This document shows, one piece after another, positions 48,006 through 54,795 of a stretch of 64,000 nucleotides of DNA (the first letter of the stretch is position 1; the number at the start of each line of letters is the position of its first letter). Source of the stretch: Streptomyces sp. ICBB 8177 (GTDB taxonomy: Bacteria; Actinomycetota; Actinomycetes; Streptomycetales; Streptomycetaceae); assembly GCF_003144095.1 (NCBI RefSeq), contig NZ_NSKH01000018.1:689965-753964 (forward strand), given 5' to 3'. A model generated the notes under the pieces. It was not told the origin of the DNA, ran no database searches, and worked only from the letters and a program-made list of their open reading frames with translations. The position numbers were made by a program, and so were the translations under genes.

Positions 48006-48054
48006 AGCGGGATCTGACCGGGCCCCTGAACCAGCGTGCCGAACAAGGTGATTG

Positions 48055-48095
48055 ACGGCACGTCACTGTTGTGACGTGCCGTTCTCTCGTGTTCT
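48055..48095 (+). terminator. intrinsic terminator of the oxidoreductase operon
   Basis: ACGGCACGTCAC (48055-48066) pairs with GTGACGTGCCGT (48071-48082) over a TGTT loop, followed by a T-rich run (48083-48098). This is a textbook Rho-independent terminator, and it isolates the peptide operon that starts at 48267. Confidence 0.92.
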
Positions 48096-48098
48096 TTT

Positions 48099-48266
48099 CC
48101 GTTGCGCTTTCAATTGAGCGGGTATTTACGTCACTTGCCGACCGGTAAATGAACGTCAAACAACAATTTTTTCCCGGCCGCCCGCTGGACCGTTTGCGGG
48201 ATGGGTCGTTGTGCGTTCCACTGGACAGGTAAGCGAAACCGCACTTCCCACTTAGGGGATGGTTGC
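48099..48266 (+). promoter_or_regulatory. low-GC promoter region of the peptide operon
   Basis: This stretch is clearly richer in A/T than its surroundings. ACGTCA occurs twice in direct orientation (48128-48133 and 48153-48158), TTTAC (48125-48129) and GTAAA (48145-48149) are inverted, and an A/T run follows (about 48160-48172). These look like activator sites ahead of a regulated gene. AGGGGA (48254-48259) is the ribosome site for ATG 48267. I cannot fix the -10 box. Confidence 0.55.
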
Positions 48267-48458
48267 ATGTTCTCCGAGGAATCCGTCGTCCGGGACGTCG
48301 CACAAGGCATCGACACCGACCTCGAAGCCGCCCTGAACCCCGCGGAAGCGGAAGGGACCTTCCGGGACACCCGTGAGTGCGCCGCACTGGCGCTGGCCGG
48401 TGGCGCAGGCCAGGTTCTGCTGTCGCCCCCGACTCCTCGGCCCAAGAAGAAGGGCTGA
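48267..48458 (+). CDS. 63-residue peptide, candidate ribosomal-peptide precursor
   Basis: The peptide has an acidic, leader-like N-terminal half (residues 1-37; many Glu/Asp, no signal peptide) and a different C-terminal part from Cys38: CAALALAGGAGQVLL followed by SPPTPRPKKKG. There is one cysteine, a hydrophobic Gly/Ala core and a Pro/Lys tail. A good ribosome site lies eight bases before ATG 48267. It heads an operon of four unrecognised or hydrolase genes. The bipartite composition suggests a precursor peptide, but I cannot assign it to a known RiPP class; it could also be a small subunit or regulator. Confidence 0.7.
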   Translation: MFSEESVVRDVAQGIDTDLEAALNPAEAEGTFRDTRECAALALAGGAGQVLLSPPTPRPKKKG

Positions 48459-48470
48459 CGGGGGACCCGC

Positions 48471-49178
48471 ATGAGTCAGTCAGGCCTGCCCCCGCTGACG
48501 GGCGCGGTGCGTGACCTGGCACACGAGGTGGTCTCCGCCCTTCGGGGCGGGGGCCACCTCGCTGGGAGCACGGCCCTCGCGGACGACGAACTCGCACTCG
48601 CCGCCGTACGGGTCCTCGGCGCCGACGTGCTGCTGCCCGCCACCCTCGCCGGCTGCCCGCTGCCCCCCGAGCGGGTGGCCGCCTTCCGCACCGCGACCCT
48701 GGCCTTCCCCGCCGCCCCGGGAGCCGCGCCGGTCACCGCCTGGAGCCACTGGGGCATGCGGCGCGCGCTGCGCGCCCTGGGCGGCCCCGAGGAGGACCCG
48801 GCGCTCCCCGACACCGGCGAGCCCGGCGCCTCCTGGCTGCAATCGCTGCCCTGGCAGCGGTTCACCCATCAGCTGGCTGTCCTCAGCGCCCTCGCGCTGC
48901 CGGGTATGCCCAGCGAGGTCGCCACGACCGCGGCGCTGCGGCCGGTGGACCTCGCCCGCGGCTTCGTGCGCGCGGTGCGCCGCAGGGACTGGCTGCAGGC
49001 CGCCGGTGCCGCCCGATGGCTGGCGCTGCTCGACGGCGTCCCCGACACCCTCGGCCTCGACACCGGCCTCGACTTCGTGCTGCTGATGAGCGACGACGAC
49101 CCCCGCGTCGCCCTCCAGGCGCACGTCGCCCGGCACATCCGCGACGAACGCCTGCTGGACGAAGGACTGCGCGCGTGA
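48471..49178 (+). CDS. unknown helical protein of the peptide operon
   Basis: The 235-residue soluble protein is Ala/Leu-rich and appears all-helical, with no signal peptide and no motif I recognise. Segments such as WSHWGMRRALRALGG and LPWQRFTHQLAVLSALALPGMP are the most distinctive; Trp and His residues cluster in the middle. ATG 48471 lies 12 bases after the peptide stop with GGGGGAC upstream, and its end overlaps the next gene by 4 nt. Its place next to the peptide suggests a binding or modifying role. Confidence 0.75.
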   Translation: MSQSGLPPLTGAVRDLAHEVVSALRGGGHLAGSTALADDELALAAVRVLGADVLLPATLAGCPLPPERVAAFRTATLAFPAAPGAAPVTAWSHWGMRRALRALGGPEEDPALPDTGEPGASWLQSLPWQRFTHQLAVLSALALPGMPSEVATTAALRPVDLARGFVRAVRRRDWLQAAGAARWLALLDGVPDTLGLDTGLDFVLLMSDDDPRVALQAHVARHIRDERLLDEGLRA

Positions 49179-50140
49179 CCACGCCGTACGCCACCGCGGT
49201 GGCCCGCCACGCCCTGCGCTGGATCGACGGCCACCGCGACGGGTTCGCCCTGCCCGCCGACGTGACCGACCCGGGCGTCCCGGTGGACCGCACCCTCAAA
49301 CCGCTGGGCGAACTGGCCCAGTTCAGCCTGTCGATCCGCCGTGCCACCCACACGGCCGACGAACGGCACCGGATCGCGGCCGGGTTGCTGGACTTCGCCT
49401 GGCGGCAGACCGACGGCGGGACGCTCTTTCTCGATCTGCTGCGCGCCGAACCGTTCGCCACCTACCCACTGGAGATCTACGCGGCCTTCGCCGAAGCGGG
49501 GCTGCGTCACGAGGAGTTCGAGCGGTTGAGCGCCGTGGTCCTGCGCACCCGCAACTGGCGGGCCACCGAGCAGGACCCCAACCGGCGGCTCGGCATCCTC
49601 AACTCCGAATGCCGCAGCAGCTTCCCGCGGTCCGCCGACACCGCCGCCGCGCTGGACCGCACCTGGCTCGCCGCCCTGCCCGAACCGTGGGCCTTCGAGC
49701 GGCCCAGCGGCTACGCCCTCACCCACACCGTCTTCCACCTCACCAACTGGGGCGCCGCGCCGCACGCCGTGCCCGGCGACCTCGCGCGCTACCTCGGCAC
49801 CTGGCTGCCCGCCTGGACGGACGGCTGCCTGGAGGACCGGCAGTGGGACCTGGGCTGCGAACTGCTCGCCGTGGCCGCGGCCCTGCCCGAGCCGTCCGAC
49901 CCGGAACCGGACACCGCGGCGGGCCGGGACTCCGACGAGAGCGTGTGGGCCAGGATCGCCGACGCCCAGGACGAGGAGGGCGGCCTGCCCGAAGTCGGCG
50001 GCAGGCCGAGGAACTTCGCCAACTGCTACCACTCCACCCTGGTCGCCGCCTTCGCCGCGACCCTGACCACCGAGCGGGCGGCCTCGCCGCCGCGGACGGC
50101 TCCGCTCGCCACCGAACCGCTGGACGGAGCACGCACATGA
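49175..50140 (+). CDS. HxxxH helical protein A (probably DUF6895-like)
   Basis: The 321-residue protein is related to the next gene product. Shared landmarks are LKPLGELA (about residue 45), a DGGTLFLDLLRAEPF block (about 87-101), THTVFHLTNWG with His184 and His188 spaced as HxxxH, and a C-terminal YHSTLVAAFAATL. The repeated helix pairs suggest an alpha/alpha-toroid-like fold. I believe this matches an actinomycete family of unknown function (DUF6895-like), from memory. GTG 49175 and ATG 50137 junctions overlap by 4 nt. The paired histidines could bind a metal or act in catalysis. Confidence 0.75.
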   Translation: MTTPYATAVARHALRWIDGHRDGFALPADVTDPGVPVDRTLKPLGELAQFSLSIRRATHTADERHRIAAGLLDFAWRQTDGGTLFLDLLRAEPFATYPLEIYAAFAEAGLRHEEFERLSAVVLRTRNWRATEQDPNRRLGILNSECRSSFPRSADTAAALDRTWLAALPEPWAFERPSGYALTHTVFHLTNWGAAPHAVPGDLARYLGTWLPAWTDGCLEDRQWDLGCELLAVAAALPEPSDPEPDTAAGRDSDESVWARIADAQDEEGGLPEVGGRPRNFANCYHSTLVAAFAATLTTERAASPPRTAPLATEPLDGART

Positions 50141-51057
50141 CCAGCACCCGGCTCATCCACGGCGTGGGTCTGCGGGCCCTGGAATGGCTGCACGCCCACC
50201 GCGACGGCTTCCGGCTGGAGCTCGACGCCGACCCCGAGATCGGCCTGATGGACCGCTTCAAGCCCGTCGGTGAACTCGCCCTCATCTGCGGGGTCATCTT
50301 CCGCGAGGGAGTGGCCGGCTCACGGCAGACGCAGCTCGCCCGCCAACTGCTCGACCACGTCTGGCGCGACACCCTCGACGGCGGCCGGATGCTGGTGGAG
50401 GGAGCCCGCACCGAACCCATCTCGCCGATCCCCTTCGAGGTCTACCTGCCGCTGCGTGAACTCGGCTACGAGCAGCCCGACATCGAGCGGTTCACCCGGC
50501 TCAACCACCGCCTCGCCAGCTGGTCGGCGTTCGAGGTGACCCCGGTACGGCGGCTGAGCCTGTCCGCCTTCCAGCGCCGCTTCGGCCTGCGCCCCGAGCC
50601 GTCCGTCGACGAGGCCGCCGCGCGGACCTGGCTGGCCCGCACCCCGGAGCCGTGGACGGTCGAGGGCCACATCGCGTACGACATCACCCACGCCGTCTTC
50701 CATCTCACCGAGTGGGGTGAGCGGCCCGACCGCCTGCCGCCGCACATCGCCGGCTACCTGGCCGACTGGCTGCCGGTGTGGCTGGACGACTGGCTCGAAC
50801 TGCGGCGCTGGGACCTGCTCGGCGAACTGCTCGTGGTCGACGCCTGCCTGCCGCGCCCCACCTTCGACGAGGCCGCGTGGGAGGGCTTCGCCGCCGCCCA
50901 GCAGCCGGACGGTGCCATGCCCGTGGTGCGCGAGATGCCCGAGGGCGATCCGGACGACGTCTTCGACCTCGTCTACCACCCCACCCTCGTCGCCGCCTTC
51001 GCCTCCGCGCTGGCCCTGTCCCGCTCGCTGTCCGCGCTGACGCCCGAGCCGTCGTGA
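50137..51057 (+). CDS. HxxxH helical protein B, paralogue of the preceding gene
   Basis: The 306-residue protein aligns with its neighbour over the whole length: FKPVGELA, DGGRMLVEGARTEPI, THAVFHLTEWG with His185 and His189, and YHPTLVAAFASAL. Identity by eye is modest, so this is an old duplication kept in tandem, implying that both copies are needed, perhaps as a heterodimer or for two successive steps. No signal peptide or membrane helix. It overlaps the serine hydrolase gene by 4 nt. Confidence 0.75.
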   Translation: MTSTRLIHGVGLRALEWLHAHRDGFRLELDADPEIGLMDRFKPVGELALICGVIFREGVAGSRQTQLARQLLDHVWRDTLDGGRMLVEGARTEPISPIPFEVYLPLRELGYEQPDIERFTRLNHRLASWSAFEVTPVRRLSLSAFQRRFGLRPEPSVDEAAARTWLARTPEPWTVEGHIAYDITHAVFHLTEWGERPDRLPPHIAGYLADWLPVWLDDWLELRRWDLLGELLVVDACLPRPTFDEAAWEGFAAAQQPDGAMPVVREMPEGDPDDVFDLVYHPTLVAAFASALALSRSLSALTPEPS

Positions 51058-52127
51058 CCACGACGGCATCGCGGACCGAGGCCGAGCGGCCACGGCGGGC
51101 CGACGACCCGGACCTCCTGCTGGAGCGGGCGGTCGCCGCGGTCGAGGCGCCCGACGTCGTCTTCGCCCTGTCCGTCGACGGCACGCGCCGGGTCCGGCAC
51201 GGCGGCACCGGACCGGCCCCGCCCGGCGGACGCGACCGGCTGCGGTACGAACTCGGCTCCGCCTCCAAGCCGTTCGCCGGACTGCTGCTCGCCCGGCTGG
51301 TCGGCACCGGCCGCGTCGGCTACCACGACGGCGCCGCGGAGCTGCTCGACCCGGGAAGGCGGCACGGCGGGGTCGAGCGCGTCACGCTGACCCACCTGAT
51401 CACCCACACCTCGGGACTGCCCGCCCTGCCCGCCGACTTCTACCCGCAGGCGCTGCCGCGCTGGACGACCGACCCCTTCTCCGGCTACCCGGCGCACCGC
51501 GTCGTCGCCGCCTTCCTGCGCGCCCGGCCCCGGCACCGCCCCGGCACCCGGTGGCACTACTCCAACTTCGGCGCCTCCGTCCTCGGCCACACCCTGGCCG
51601 CCGCGACCGGCACCGCGTGGGAGGAGCTGCTGACCGCCGAGGTGCTCGCCCCGCTGGGCCTGCGCGACACCGCGCTGCGGCCGTCCGGCGCCGCGGGGAC
51701 GGACGCCGTGGGACACCGCAGGGACGGGACGACGCAGCTGCCGCCGCTGGACGTGGCCGGCTTCGCGGCCGCGGGCGCGGTACGGGCCACGCCGTACGAC
51801 ATGCTCGGCTTCCTCGAAGCCCACCTGCGGCCGGACACCACGGCGTTGGGCCCCGCGCTGCGGGCGGTGCGCCAACCGCTGCTGCGCCGCGGGTGGGGCC
51901 GCCGCGAGGTCCACACCCTCACCTGGTTCCAGCACTCCACCGAGCACGGGCCGGTGTACTTCCACTGCGGGGCGACCAGCGGGCAGCAGGCGTTCCTCGG
52001 CTTCTGCCCCGGCACCGGCGCCGCCCTCGCCGCGGCCTGCACCCGCCGCTTCCGCAAGAGCGACGCCTTCGTCCCGACCGCCTACGGGCTGCTGCTGGAC
52101 GTCGCGGGATCCGGCCCCACGGCGTGA
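51054..52127 (+). CDS. serine beta-lactamase/DD-peptidase-fold hydrolase, cytosolic
   Basis: The 357-residue protein has the three motifs of the class C beta-lactamase/DD-peptidase fold: SxxK as Ser69-Ala-Ser-Lys72 (GSASK), YxN as Tyr169-Ser-Asn171 (HYSNFG) and HxG in FHCGATSG. HTSGLPALP after the first motif is also typical. There is no signal peptide, so it is not a secreted beta-lactamase; cytosolic members include esterases, aminopeptidases and peptide cyclases. As last gene of the peptide operon it could cleave or cyclise the 63-residue peptide (inference). Confidence 0.88.
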   Translation: MTTTASRTEAERPRRADDPDLLLERAVAAVEAPDVVFALSVDGTRRVRHGGTGPAPPGGRDRLRYELGSASKPFAGLLLARLVGTGRVGYHDGAAELLDPGRRHGGVERVTLTHLITHTSGLPALPADFYPQALPRWTTDPFSGYPAHRVVAAFLRARPRHRPGTRWHYSNFGASVLGHTLAAATGTAWEELLTAEVLAPLGLRDTALRPSGAAGTDAVGHRRDGTTQLPPLDVAGFAAAGAVRATPYDMLGFLEAHLRPDTTALGPALRAVRQPLLRRGWGRREVHTLTWFQHSTEHGPVYFHCGATSGQQAFLGFCPGTGAALAAACTRRFRKSDAFVPTAYGLLLDVAGSGPTA

Positions 52128-52153
52128 GCCGCCGGGCGTCCGGGCGGGCGCTC

Positions 52154-53566
52154 TCAGGCGTCCAGCTTCAGTTCCGTCGAACGGCCCGTCAGCTTGCGGA
52201 TCACCAGGATCGCGATGCCGACCACAAGCCAGCACGAACCGCCGATCTGCGCCTTGGAGTCGGCGTTGTAGAGCACGTAGCCGATGATGGCGAAGCCGAT
52301 CAGCGGTACCACCAGGTGCATCCCGTAGGTGTGTTCACGCCTGCGCACCAGGAAGTAGAACATCACCGACAGGTGCAGCATCAGGAACGAGAAGAGCGCG
52401 CCGAAGTTCACCAGTGACGACAACAGGCCCACCTGCCCGACCAGTCCGAGCCCCAGGCCCAGGCTGATCACGGCGACCAGCAGCACCGCGCGCTCGGGCA
52501 CCTTCCGGGTGGGGTGCACGTGCGCGAGGAAACGCGGCAGCTGGCCGTCGCGTGCCATCGAGAACAGCAGTCGGGAGGTCGCGGCCTGCGCCGCCAGGGA
52601 GTTGGCGACGGCGGCGGCCAGGGCACTGGAGATCGCCACCACGTCCTTGAACCACACGCCACCCGCGATCCGCGCCACGTCGTAGAACGCGGTGTTCTCC
52701 GCCGCCTGGTTGGGCAGCGAGGTGCGGCCCGGCAGCAGCAACGCCGCCAGATAGGTCTGCACGACGAACAACGCGGCCACCAGGCACAGCGACAGCAGTG
52801 TCGCGCGCCCGACCACCTTCCGGCCCCCGCGGACCTCCTCGGCCAGGGTGGAGATGGCGTCGAAGCCGAGGAACGACAGGGCGGCCACCGACAGGGCGGA
52901 GAAGACCAGGCCCACCGAGAAGACGTGCGAGTCGTAGAACGGCGTGGTGCTCCAATGGGCGCCGTTCTTGCCTTCGTTGATCGCGATGACGCTGAGCACC
53001 ACGAACATCGCCAGGATGACCAGTTCCGCCAGGAGGAACAGCTTGTTCATCTGCGCCGTGGTCCGGATGCCCAGCATGTTCACACTGGTGTTGAACACCA
53101 CGAACACCACGATCCACAGCCACTGCGGCACCCCGCCGATCACCGACTGCAACGCCACCGCCCCGGTCACGTACAGCAGTGTCGGCACCAGCAGGTAGTC
53201 CAGCAGGATCGCCCACCCGGCGAGGAACCCCGCCTCCGGCCGCAGCCCGCGCCCGGCGTACGCGTAGACGGACCCGGCGATGGGAAAGGCCTGCGACATC
53301 TCCCGGTAGCTCAGCGCGGTGAACACCATCGCCACCAGCCCGATGACGTAGGTCAGCGGCACCATGCCCTTCGCCGTGTCGAAGACGACGCCGAAGATGG
53401 CGAAGGGCGCGATCGGCACCATGAAGACCATGCCGTACACCAGCAGGTCGCGCAGTCCCAGCGTTCTGCGCAACTCCTGCTCGTAGCCGAACCGCGACAG
53501 CGACTCGTCGCCGTCGGCGCCCTCCGGTCGTGGCCGGCCTGCCGTCTCGTGGTCTGACTCGCTCAT
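52154..53566 (-). CDS. APC-superfamily permease (amino acid/polyamine type)
   Basis: The 470-residue membrane protein has 12 helices: VYGMVFMVPIAPFAIFGVV in helix 1, ALSFLGFDAISTLAEEVRGG for helix 6 and the following loop, and AAQAATSRLLFSMARDGQLP for the helix 8 region. It resembles putrescine/amino-acid importers of the PuuP/YhdG kind. AGGGGAG precedes ATG 53566. It is convergent to the peptide operon with a 26-base gap; proximity may be chance, or it may move an amino acid or the peptide product. Confidence 0.88.
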   Translation of the reverse strand: MSESDHETAGRPRPEGADGDESLSRFGYEQELRRTLGLRDLLVYGMVFMVPIAPFAIFGVVFDTAKGMVPLTYVIGLVAMVFTALSYREMSQAFPIAGSVYAYAGRGLRPEAGFLAGWAILLDYLLVPTLLYVTGAVALQSVIGGVPQWLWIVVFVVFNTSVNMLGIRTTAQMNKLFLLAELVILAMFVVLSVIAINEGKNGAHWSTTPFYDSHVFSVGLVFSALSVAALSFLGFDAISTLAEEVRGGRKVVGRATLLSLCLVAALFVVQTYLAALLLPGRTSLPNQAAENTAFYDVARIAGGVWFKDVVAISSALAAAVANSLAAQAATSRLLFSMARDGQLPRFLAHVHPTRKVPERAVLLVAVISLGLGLGLVGQVGLLSSLVNFGALFSFLMLHLSVMFYFLVRRREHTYGMHLVVPLIGFAIIGYVLYNADSKAQIGGSCWLVVGIAILVIRKLTGRSTELKLDA

Positions 53567-54564: not shown

Positions 54565-54795
54565 TCAGAAGAAGTCGCGCTCGACGATCTCCTCGCGCTC
54601 GATGACCTCTTCGCCACCGAAGAGGCCGCCGAGGAAGCCGCCGCGCTCCTCCACAATGGTCTCCCGCTCGATGACCTCATCGCGGCCGAAGAACCCGCCG
54701 CGGTGCTCGACGACCGTCTCGCGTTCGATGATCTCCTCCCCGCCGAAGAACCCGTCCCGCTCGATGATCTCTTCGCGCTCGTAGTACTCACGCAC
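54565..54795 (-). CDS. Glu-rich repeat protein
   Basis: The 76-residue protein is built of repeated EEIIERE-like heptads separated by GFFGG-like turns: EEIIERDGFFGG, EEIIERETVVEH, DEVIERETIVEE, EEVIEREEIVERDFF. It is strongly acidic, with no signal peptide. AGGAAG precedes GTG 54795. The DNA shows matching near-direct repeats of about 42 bases. It may assemble into amyloid-like or coiled structures, but I know of no function. It is conserved-looking rather than random because codon choice varies while residues persist. Confidence 0.78.
   Translation of the reverse strand: MREYYEREEIIERDGFFGGEEIIERETVVEHRGGFFGRDEVIERETIVEERGGFLGGLFGGEEVIEREEIVERDFF

Follow-up and report, generated by a model that had tools for sequence, protein, structure and literature searches.

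What is a gene for a very small peptide doing at the head of a row of enzyme-like genes? The question is raised by a five-gene cassette in a 64,000-nucleotide stretch of the genome of Streptomyces sp. ICBB 8177 – the whole of which is here called the window, part of contig C11 in the 6.3-Mb genome G000. The cassette comprises the peptide gene, a gene for a helical protein (g2), two paralogous genes whose products share an HxxxH motif (duf1 and duf2) and a gene for a serine hydrolase (bla). The peptide gene has an AGGGGA ribosome-binding site 7 nt upstream of its start codon (48254–48259) and is separated from g2 by a 12-nt gap; the g2/duf1, duf1/duf2 and duf2/bla junctions are overlaps of 4 nt each. 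These five genes and their junctions had been set out in a preliminary description of this DNA, and reading the sequence bears them out (Table 1). As the peptide gene sits with two putative epimerase-family enzymes and a protease-like enzyme, the cassette probably makes an undescribed modified peptide. The reading that we favour, at a probability of roughly 0.6, is that it resembles systems for ribosomally synthesised and post-translationally modified peptides (RiPPs): the two paralogues, members of the family DUF6895, would epimerise the precursor, and the hydrolase, of the S12 type, would cut it or close it into a ring near a D-residue.

The peptide gene is not a chance open reading frame (ORF), as its co-occurrence with the other genes, the block-wise selection on its sequence and the NCBI annotation of a homologue together show. 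The homologue (WP_040905375.1, sequence checked) is annotated as a coding sequence on a Streptomyces fungicidicus plasmid. At least 41 loci in bacterial genomes from the scan carry the peptide, and all of them are from Streptomyces among the matches listed. Among these same matches, the peptide, g2, duf1 and duf2 genes follow one another in the same order in 39 of the 41 loci, and the hydrolase gene, at least partly present, comes next in 38 of those 39, being missing from L043, at a contig end. In one locus (L056), duf1 is split into two pieces. A profile of 26 peptides of the kind found in the window (type A, profile A1) matches 85 of 297 sampled Streptomycetaceae genomes, once in each, and 84 of the 85 also have DUF6895 (Fisher p ~1e-26 over the 297 genomes, uncorrected for kinship). 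The remaining one, G251, has no DUF6895, and its peptide and shortened g2 are identical to those of the named locus L038; since cases like this one belong to both the named and the unnamed set, the two are not independent. Neither the peptide nor g2 matches any Pfam or NCBIfam model at E ≤ 1 or any PADLOC model at E ≤ 0.01. A defence system was considered and rejected, there being no PADLOC match.

The association holds from the other side as well. DUF6895 is matched in 163 of the 297 genomes (161 over the curated cut-off), 140 of which also contain a match to a type A or type B peptide, anywhere in the genome. Cassette loci were then reached through DUF6895, with g2 present and at least 300 nt of upstream sequence, and a small peptide gene lies upstream in 42 of 43 of them (43 genomes), a set that is not random because it joins best-scoring DUF6895 matches to loci from hand-picked genomes, mostly chosen for the absence of peptide types A and B. 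Cassettes with two DUF6895 genes have a type A peptide in 30 of 30 cases. Those with one have a small peptide in 12 of 13: seven by the model of a second type, type B (...ISDAPLYVPED-GAGLLLLGLLLSPKPPKER), and five read by eye, four of them of type C (such as ...GAALLLLAGAVLLSADPRKDEPVEDAYVGMVQNLACAAAF) and one a Gly-rich peptide ending in LLLLSVGKPKK. The sole cassette without a small peptide, G027, also lacks the hydrolase. The type B model matches 62 of the 297 genomes at E ≤ 0.01, 60 of these with DUF6895; four genomes match both types, their type B matches being weak. All types have a hydrophobic Leu-rich block, which in most of them leads into Ser and a tail containing Pro and Lys.

We thus find a small precursor-like gene that adjoins candidate modifying enzymes and is inherited with them (84 of 85 genomes, 42 of 43 cassette loci), as in RiPP systems. 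The co-occurrence of peptide and HxxxH paralogues, proposed in the preliminary description as the way to check the precursor idea, is real, and homologous operons do not usually lack the peptide, which would have spoken against that idea. In the type C peptides (L198, L200, L201 and L101), the tail after the hydrophobic block, such as PVEDAYVGMVQNLACA, looks by eye like the motif that precedes the core in type A, of which PAEADGVYRDSRECAA is an example, as though the parts had changed places; this could be chance. Whole or nearly whole cassettes also occur on plasmids – L207 (type A, Streptomyces) and L208 (type B, Kitasatospora, where the annotated hydrolase is short) – which shows that the unit can travel.

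A lead to the chemistry comes from the identity of the paralogues. Both are DUF6895 proteins (PF21836), scoring 277 and 284 bits against a curated Pfam cut-off of 23.8, and PMC13352647 lists among its references Shi et al. 2026 (ACS Catal), whose title speaks of a DUF6895 lasso-peptide epimerase; this points to epimerisation as the candidate reaction. In 38 aligned sequences the two histidines of the HxxxH motif (H185 and H189 in duf2 numbering) are invariant, as are further residues capable of acid or base chemistry: K42, E46, E93, E101, D226, E230 and H281. The predicted structure of duf2 is all helical (predicted local distance difference test, pLDDT, 93.7) and can be read as an (alpha/alpha)6 barrel. 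In structural alignment this model matches glycosyl hydrolases, terpene cyclases and sugar epimerases with Z scores between 16 and 13; N-acyl-D-glucosamine and cellobiose 2-epimerases stand at ranks 33–34 (Z 14.5, root-mean-square deviation 4.3 and 4.2, 273 and 275 positions aligned). Helical folds easily reach such Z values, and the match therefore speaks at most for fold, not function. N-acetylglucosamine 2-epimerases are described, in passages of PMC6333288, as (alpha/alpha)6 barrels that work by deprotonation and reprotonation; their catalytic pair, initially taken for two histidines, was reassigned to glutamine and arginine. In a tree of 56 DUF6895 domains the cassette proteins lie on one side with full support, the group from one-DUF cassettes is sister to duf2 (100/98), and each of the other gene contexts forms a group of its own; the long branches meeting between the LanB/LanC and cassette rows drew a program warning.

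The last gene of the cassette encodes a PF00144 protein (E 3e-44) whose S12 motifs are intact: S69xxK72, Y169-S-N171 and H304-x-G306 are invariant in 18 sequences, and in the protein of the window they read SASK, YSN and HCG. Inspection by eye shows no evident signal peptide. Among the solved relatives of this hydrolase are alkaline D-peptidase and ClbP. The S12 hydrolase superfamily includes D-peptidases as well as peptide cyclases that use D-residues. That a candidate pair of peptide epimerases shares one operon with such an enzyme suggests that a D-residue directs the cut or closure. Cyclases of the penicillin-binding-protein (PBP) type, according to passages of PMC11735501, link a D-residue at the C-terminus with an L-residue at the N-terminus, and one of them, SurE, requires that D-residue. 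The g2 protein has a predicted structure (pLDDT 82.1) with no clear fold match (Foldseek best E 0.86, VIA-align best Z 7.9); searches by sequence gave no convincing solved relatives of either DUF6895 or g2 (best E 0.015, a lectin, and 0.31, a designed protein). Homology between g2 and DUF6895 was ruled out (hhalign probability 0.2%).

Where in the peptide such chemistry might act is suggested by its sequence evolution. Across 70 unique type A peptides, E27, C38, S53, P54, P55, T56, P57 and P59 are unchanged (a further homologue outside the 70, at L207, has A instead of T56), and positions 44, 45 and 47–49, like many of residues 2–17, have an entropy of 2 to 3 bits. The codons of the fixed residues show synonymous variation, and the stretch running from Cys38 to the Leu block takes 47 different forms. 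Ratios of non-synonymous to synonymous differences (pN/pS), pooled over all pairs of 55 peptides of the longer kind and uncorrected for phylogeny, are 1.19 for residues 1–17 (start codon excluded), 0.28 for 18–38, 0.15 for 39–43, 1.16 for 44–49 and 0.03 for 50–61 – a variable N-terminus, a conserved acidic block, a conserved stretch, a variable segment and a near-invariant tail. Because these values differ by block, the peptide is neither uniformly conserved nor simply variable at its end: a short variable segment lies between two fixed blocks. The C-terminal half does not vary as a whole, a possibility that the preliminary description had raised, since residues 50–61 are the most conserved stretch and only 44–49 and the N-terminal 17 vary; nor is the peptide conserved along its whole length, as that description had expected of a structural subunit, with 44–49 unconstrained. 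The peptide shares with RiPP precursors a conserved recognition region joined to a more variable core, although the fixed tail is unusual among them. The role of the peptide as a precursor is well supported.

In the mechanism that we propose, the leader and the unvarying first part of the core would reach to about residue 43, residues 44–52 would be the core, and the conserved tail SPPTPRPKK would be a follower, a recognition element at the C-terminus. The two DUF6895 barrels would abstract and return alpha-protons, so that chosen L-residues of the Ala/Gly/Leu-rich segment become D, with g2 binding or presenting the precursor; the hydrolase would then attack the peptide where a D-residue stands, with the conserved Leu–Ser junction (52/53) as the likeliest place, and either remove the tail or close a ring. 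It is a tentative further thought, held with less confidence than the mechanism itself, that the cassette represents a RiPP class of its own, in which tandem helical-barrel epimerases are paired with a D-selective S12 enzyme and the newly made D-residue marks the bond that is cut or ring-closed; on that reading, several D-residues in a Gly/Ala/Leu-rich segment could even yield a membrane-active D/L peptide.

Several observations weigh against this picture. Hydrolases, lyases and terpene cyclases outrank epimerases among the fold matches of duf2, Foldseek returns nothing for its model at E ≤ 0.001 (best E 0.011), and the sugar epimerases lend an HxxxH mechanism no support, because their catalytic pair is glutamine and arginine. 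Epimerase activity would be carried over from the title of Shi et al. 2026, which concerns another cluster type, and the cassette proteins, forming a clade of their own, may differ in function from that epimerase. The solved structures that bla matches best are those of Flp and class C beta-lactamases; ClbP and alkaline D-peptidase come lower in the list. Conservation of the peptide tail (50–61) goes far beyond what is usual in a RiPP core. Two loci, L038 (peptide and shortened g2) and L039 (peptide alone), are without DUF6895, though they look like cassette remnants. No product of the cassette is known, and no exporter is common to the loci: besides the hydrolase, no flanking family occurs in more than 19 of 42 loci, with flanks of up to ~8 kb, some shorter.

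The likeliest alternatives are a signal peptide derived from the tail and a subunit that is no precursor at all. The first keeps the RiPP-like frame and makes the conserved short tail (SPPTPRPKK...) the product, a signal or cofactor-like molecule that the hydrolase frees, with 44–49 a mere spacer. It would account for a tail pN/pS of 0.03 beside an unconstrained segment, for the presence of a single copy in each of the 85 genomes (of 297) that have it and for the lack of a shared exporter; we consider it unlikely all the same, given that the tail differs among peptide types A, B and C and that two DUF6895 enzymes are not obviously needed for a tail alone. Somewhat less probable still is a structural or regulatory subunit – an adaptor or membrane-binding peptide in a complex of g2, DUF6895 and hydrolase whose substrate is another molecule – which fits the strong conservation of blocks 18–43 and 50–61 and the steady presence of the peptide with the enzymes, but not the unconstrained 44–49, the different peptide sequences that head the same gene set or the DUF6895 relatives that adjoin RiPP enzymes (see below). 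An everyday operon of the beta-lactamase, cell-wall or detoxification kind whose small ORF is spurious, a reading for which one could cite the breadth of PF00144 and the matches of bla to class C beta-lactamase models (all scores below the cut-offs), is very improbable and already contradicted by the conservation data, namely the strong purifying selection in blocks, besides the NCBI-annotated homologue, the co-occurrence in 84 of 85 genomes and the absence of an evident signal peptide on the hydrolase.

Returning to the favoured reading, epimerisation of a precursor, DUF6895 is also found beside LanB, LanC and ATP-binding cassette (ABC) transporter genes, and beside radical S-adenosylmethionine (SAM) enzyme and major facilitator superfamily (MFS) genes with a tiny acidic peptide. 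Seventeen of the 23 DUF6895 genomes that lack both type A and type B were opened: five have cassettes with other peptides, and the others are G027, three of a radical-SAM type, three of a LanB/LanC type, three DUF6895 fusions, G129 (a lone DUF6895 remnant that falls inside duf2 in the tree) and G126 (whose own gene calls give no match to our own DUF6895 profile, yet Pfam scores one). With extra loci from genomes that also hold a cassette or a different type, the counts become eight, four and five for the radical-SAM, LanB/LanC and fusion types; domains were verified with Pfam at one locus per type (L186, L195 and L199), and the rest were assigned by gene order and size. No lasso context was seen in the loci opened, which were chosen by hand and leave out the other six of these 23 genomes, G078, G161, G228, G242, G257 and G264.

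The radical-SAM type (L078, L186, L187, L188, L191, L192, L193 and L194) is a second candidate RiPP type, with a glycosyltransferase-like gene, radical SAM, an MFS exporter and usually two DUF6895 domains; all eight loci have an acidic peptide of 37–46 aa that contains ...VVAH... and ends near C[IV]xN[NH]S. At L190, L195, L196 and L197 a DUF6895 protein of ~425–470 aa, a possible epimerase, closes a class I lanthipeptide-like LanB–LanC–ABC transporter row. The fusions (L084, L189, L199, L203 and L204) are proteins of ~550–600 aa that carry the DUF6895 domain at the N-terminus. A conserved gene of 65–70 aa (...GYVLAWxKYVLVV...) immediately precedes the fusion gene, and no other RiPP genes are evident. 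Two related orphan loci, L076 and L087, have no recognised small peptide. In a phylum-wide sample DUF6895 exceeds the cut-off in six of 396 genomes, all Streptomycetaceae, with one further match below it. The family is not strictly confined to Streptomycetaceae, because a distant match (31% identity; L206:7001–7738) lies on a plasmid of Cupriavidus oxalaticus, outside Actinomycetota; its surroundings, with genes called by a Streptomyces codon model, show no clear RiPP context.

Table 1. Features of the cassette and its surroundings, in window positions
Feature	Position	Strand	Remarks
Hairpin	48054–48083	+	13-bp stem, 4-nt loop; -25.5 kcal/mol, fold z -5.66; without clear T-run; possible terminator
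AT-richer 5' region of cassette	48084–48266	+	sequence read directly; holds ribosome-binding site
Peptide gene	48267–48458	+	63 aa; type A, precursor-like; heads operon
Peptide codons 44–49 (variable)	48396–48413	+	pN/pS 1.16 over 55 peptides
Peptide C-terminal tail, residues 50–63	48414–48455	+	VLLSPPTPRPKKKG; no change in SPPTP or P59 across 70 unique peptides, codons vary
g2	48471–49178	+	235 aa, predicted helical; candidate peptide-binding or scaffold partner
duf1	49175–50140	+	321 aa; DUF6895 (PF21836), E 2.2e-82; candidate peptide epimerase 1
duf2	50137–51057	+	306 aa; DUF6895 (PF21836), E 2.2e-84; candidate peptide epimerase 2, predicted helical barrel
bla	51054–52127	+	357 aa; cytosolic PF00144/S12 serine hydrolase, SxxK/YSN/HxG intact
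APC permease	52154–53566	-	present, faces operon
Gene for 76-aa protein	54565–54795	-	repeated charged segments such as EEIIERDGFFGG

The surroundings of the cassette had been described as a terminator and a low-GC promoter region that isolate it, together with a facing permease. A strong hairpin does separate it from the upstream molybdenum hydroxylase operon, and an AT-richer stretch follows; a simple pattern scan upstream of the peptide gene called neither a terminator nor a sigma-70-like promoter, so both names are best taken as plausible. The permease, of the amino acid–polyamine–organocation (APC) family, is present on the minus strand and is not part of the system: it adjoins the cassette only in the window genome and in G001, the one congener sampled (tblastn, L001–L074), and was dropped as a member on that ground. 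Among the 41 named loci listed, a relative occurs only at L041, ~3.9 kb away; a few loci end short of that distance. The hydrolase is the commonest flanking gene family (39 of 42 cassette loci). The next, in 19 of 42, is annotated in S. fungicidicus as an alpha-lytic protease prodomain protein, lies convergent to the hydrolase (for example L207:6070–7440) and possibly reflects only synteny. Ten further flanking genes that were scanned encode a P450, a TetR protein, three molybdenum-hydroxylase subunits, Mut7-C, a GDSL lipase, a zinc-type dehydrogenase, an aminotransferase and a LysR protein. Domains of LanB/LanC, radical SAM or lasso cyclase are absent, as first described, from the five cassette genes, the permease and these ten genes, the part of the genome that the search covered (YcaO only via the same scans). 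Equally absent from them are the leader peptidase and asparagine-synthetase-like cyclase domains of a lasso cluster.

In open-access text, with subscription papers and preprints outside the search, "DUF6895" occurs only in one paper's reference title, the tail motif SPPTPRPKK nowhere, and no description of the cassette or its peptide was found. The cassette is a candidate RiPP family that is common among the sampled Streptomycetaceae (type A in 85 of 297 genomes and type B in 62 at E ≤ 0.01, four of the latter weak and in type A genomes), yet whose peptide motif is absent from that text. If the favoured reading is true, it would offer a widespread way, encoded by five genes, of making peptides with D-residues that does without the usual RiPP class enzymes, and would link a newly reported epimerase family to a protease superfamily that uses D-residues. 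The cassette is small enough for direct testing in a laboratory host.

Parts of the proposed scheme have counterparts in known systems. SurE, WolJ and Ulm16 (PBP-type thioesterases), like the S12 D-peptidases, are serine enzymes that we take to belong to the same broad superfamily as bla, with non-ribosomal peptides or free D-peptides as their substrates, unlike the ribosomal one proposed here. These enzymes use D-residues, and WolJ and Ulm16 also take a C-terminal Gly (passages of PMC11735501). Like the cassette, the LanB/LanC and radical-SAM/MFS loci have a DUF6895 protein, here next to RiPP enzymes, and those of the radical-SAM type also have a tiny peptide gene; both kinds of locus differ from the cassette in that their DUF6895 proteins form separate clades and in that neither g2 nor an S12 hydrolase was seen in them. 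The lasso-peptide epimerase of Shi et al. 2026, as its title presents it, shares the Pfam family name with duf1 and duf2; no lasso enzymes were found in the cassette, which has tandem paralogues, an S12 hydrolase and g2. Passages of PMC10406935 describe MslH, the epimerase of the lasso peptide MS-271, which epimerises a ribosomal precursor by acid/base chemistry ahead of its later maturation and has a calcineurin-like fold with a Ca(II) site and two His/Asp pairs. The proposed outcome is alike – an epimerised ribosomal precursor – and duf2, predicted to be a helical barrel rather than calcineurin-like, would be a separate solution.

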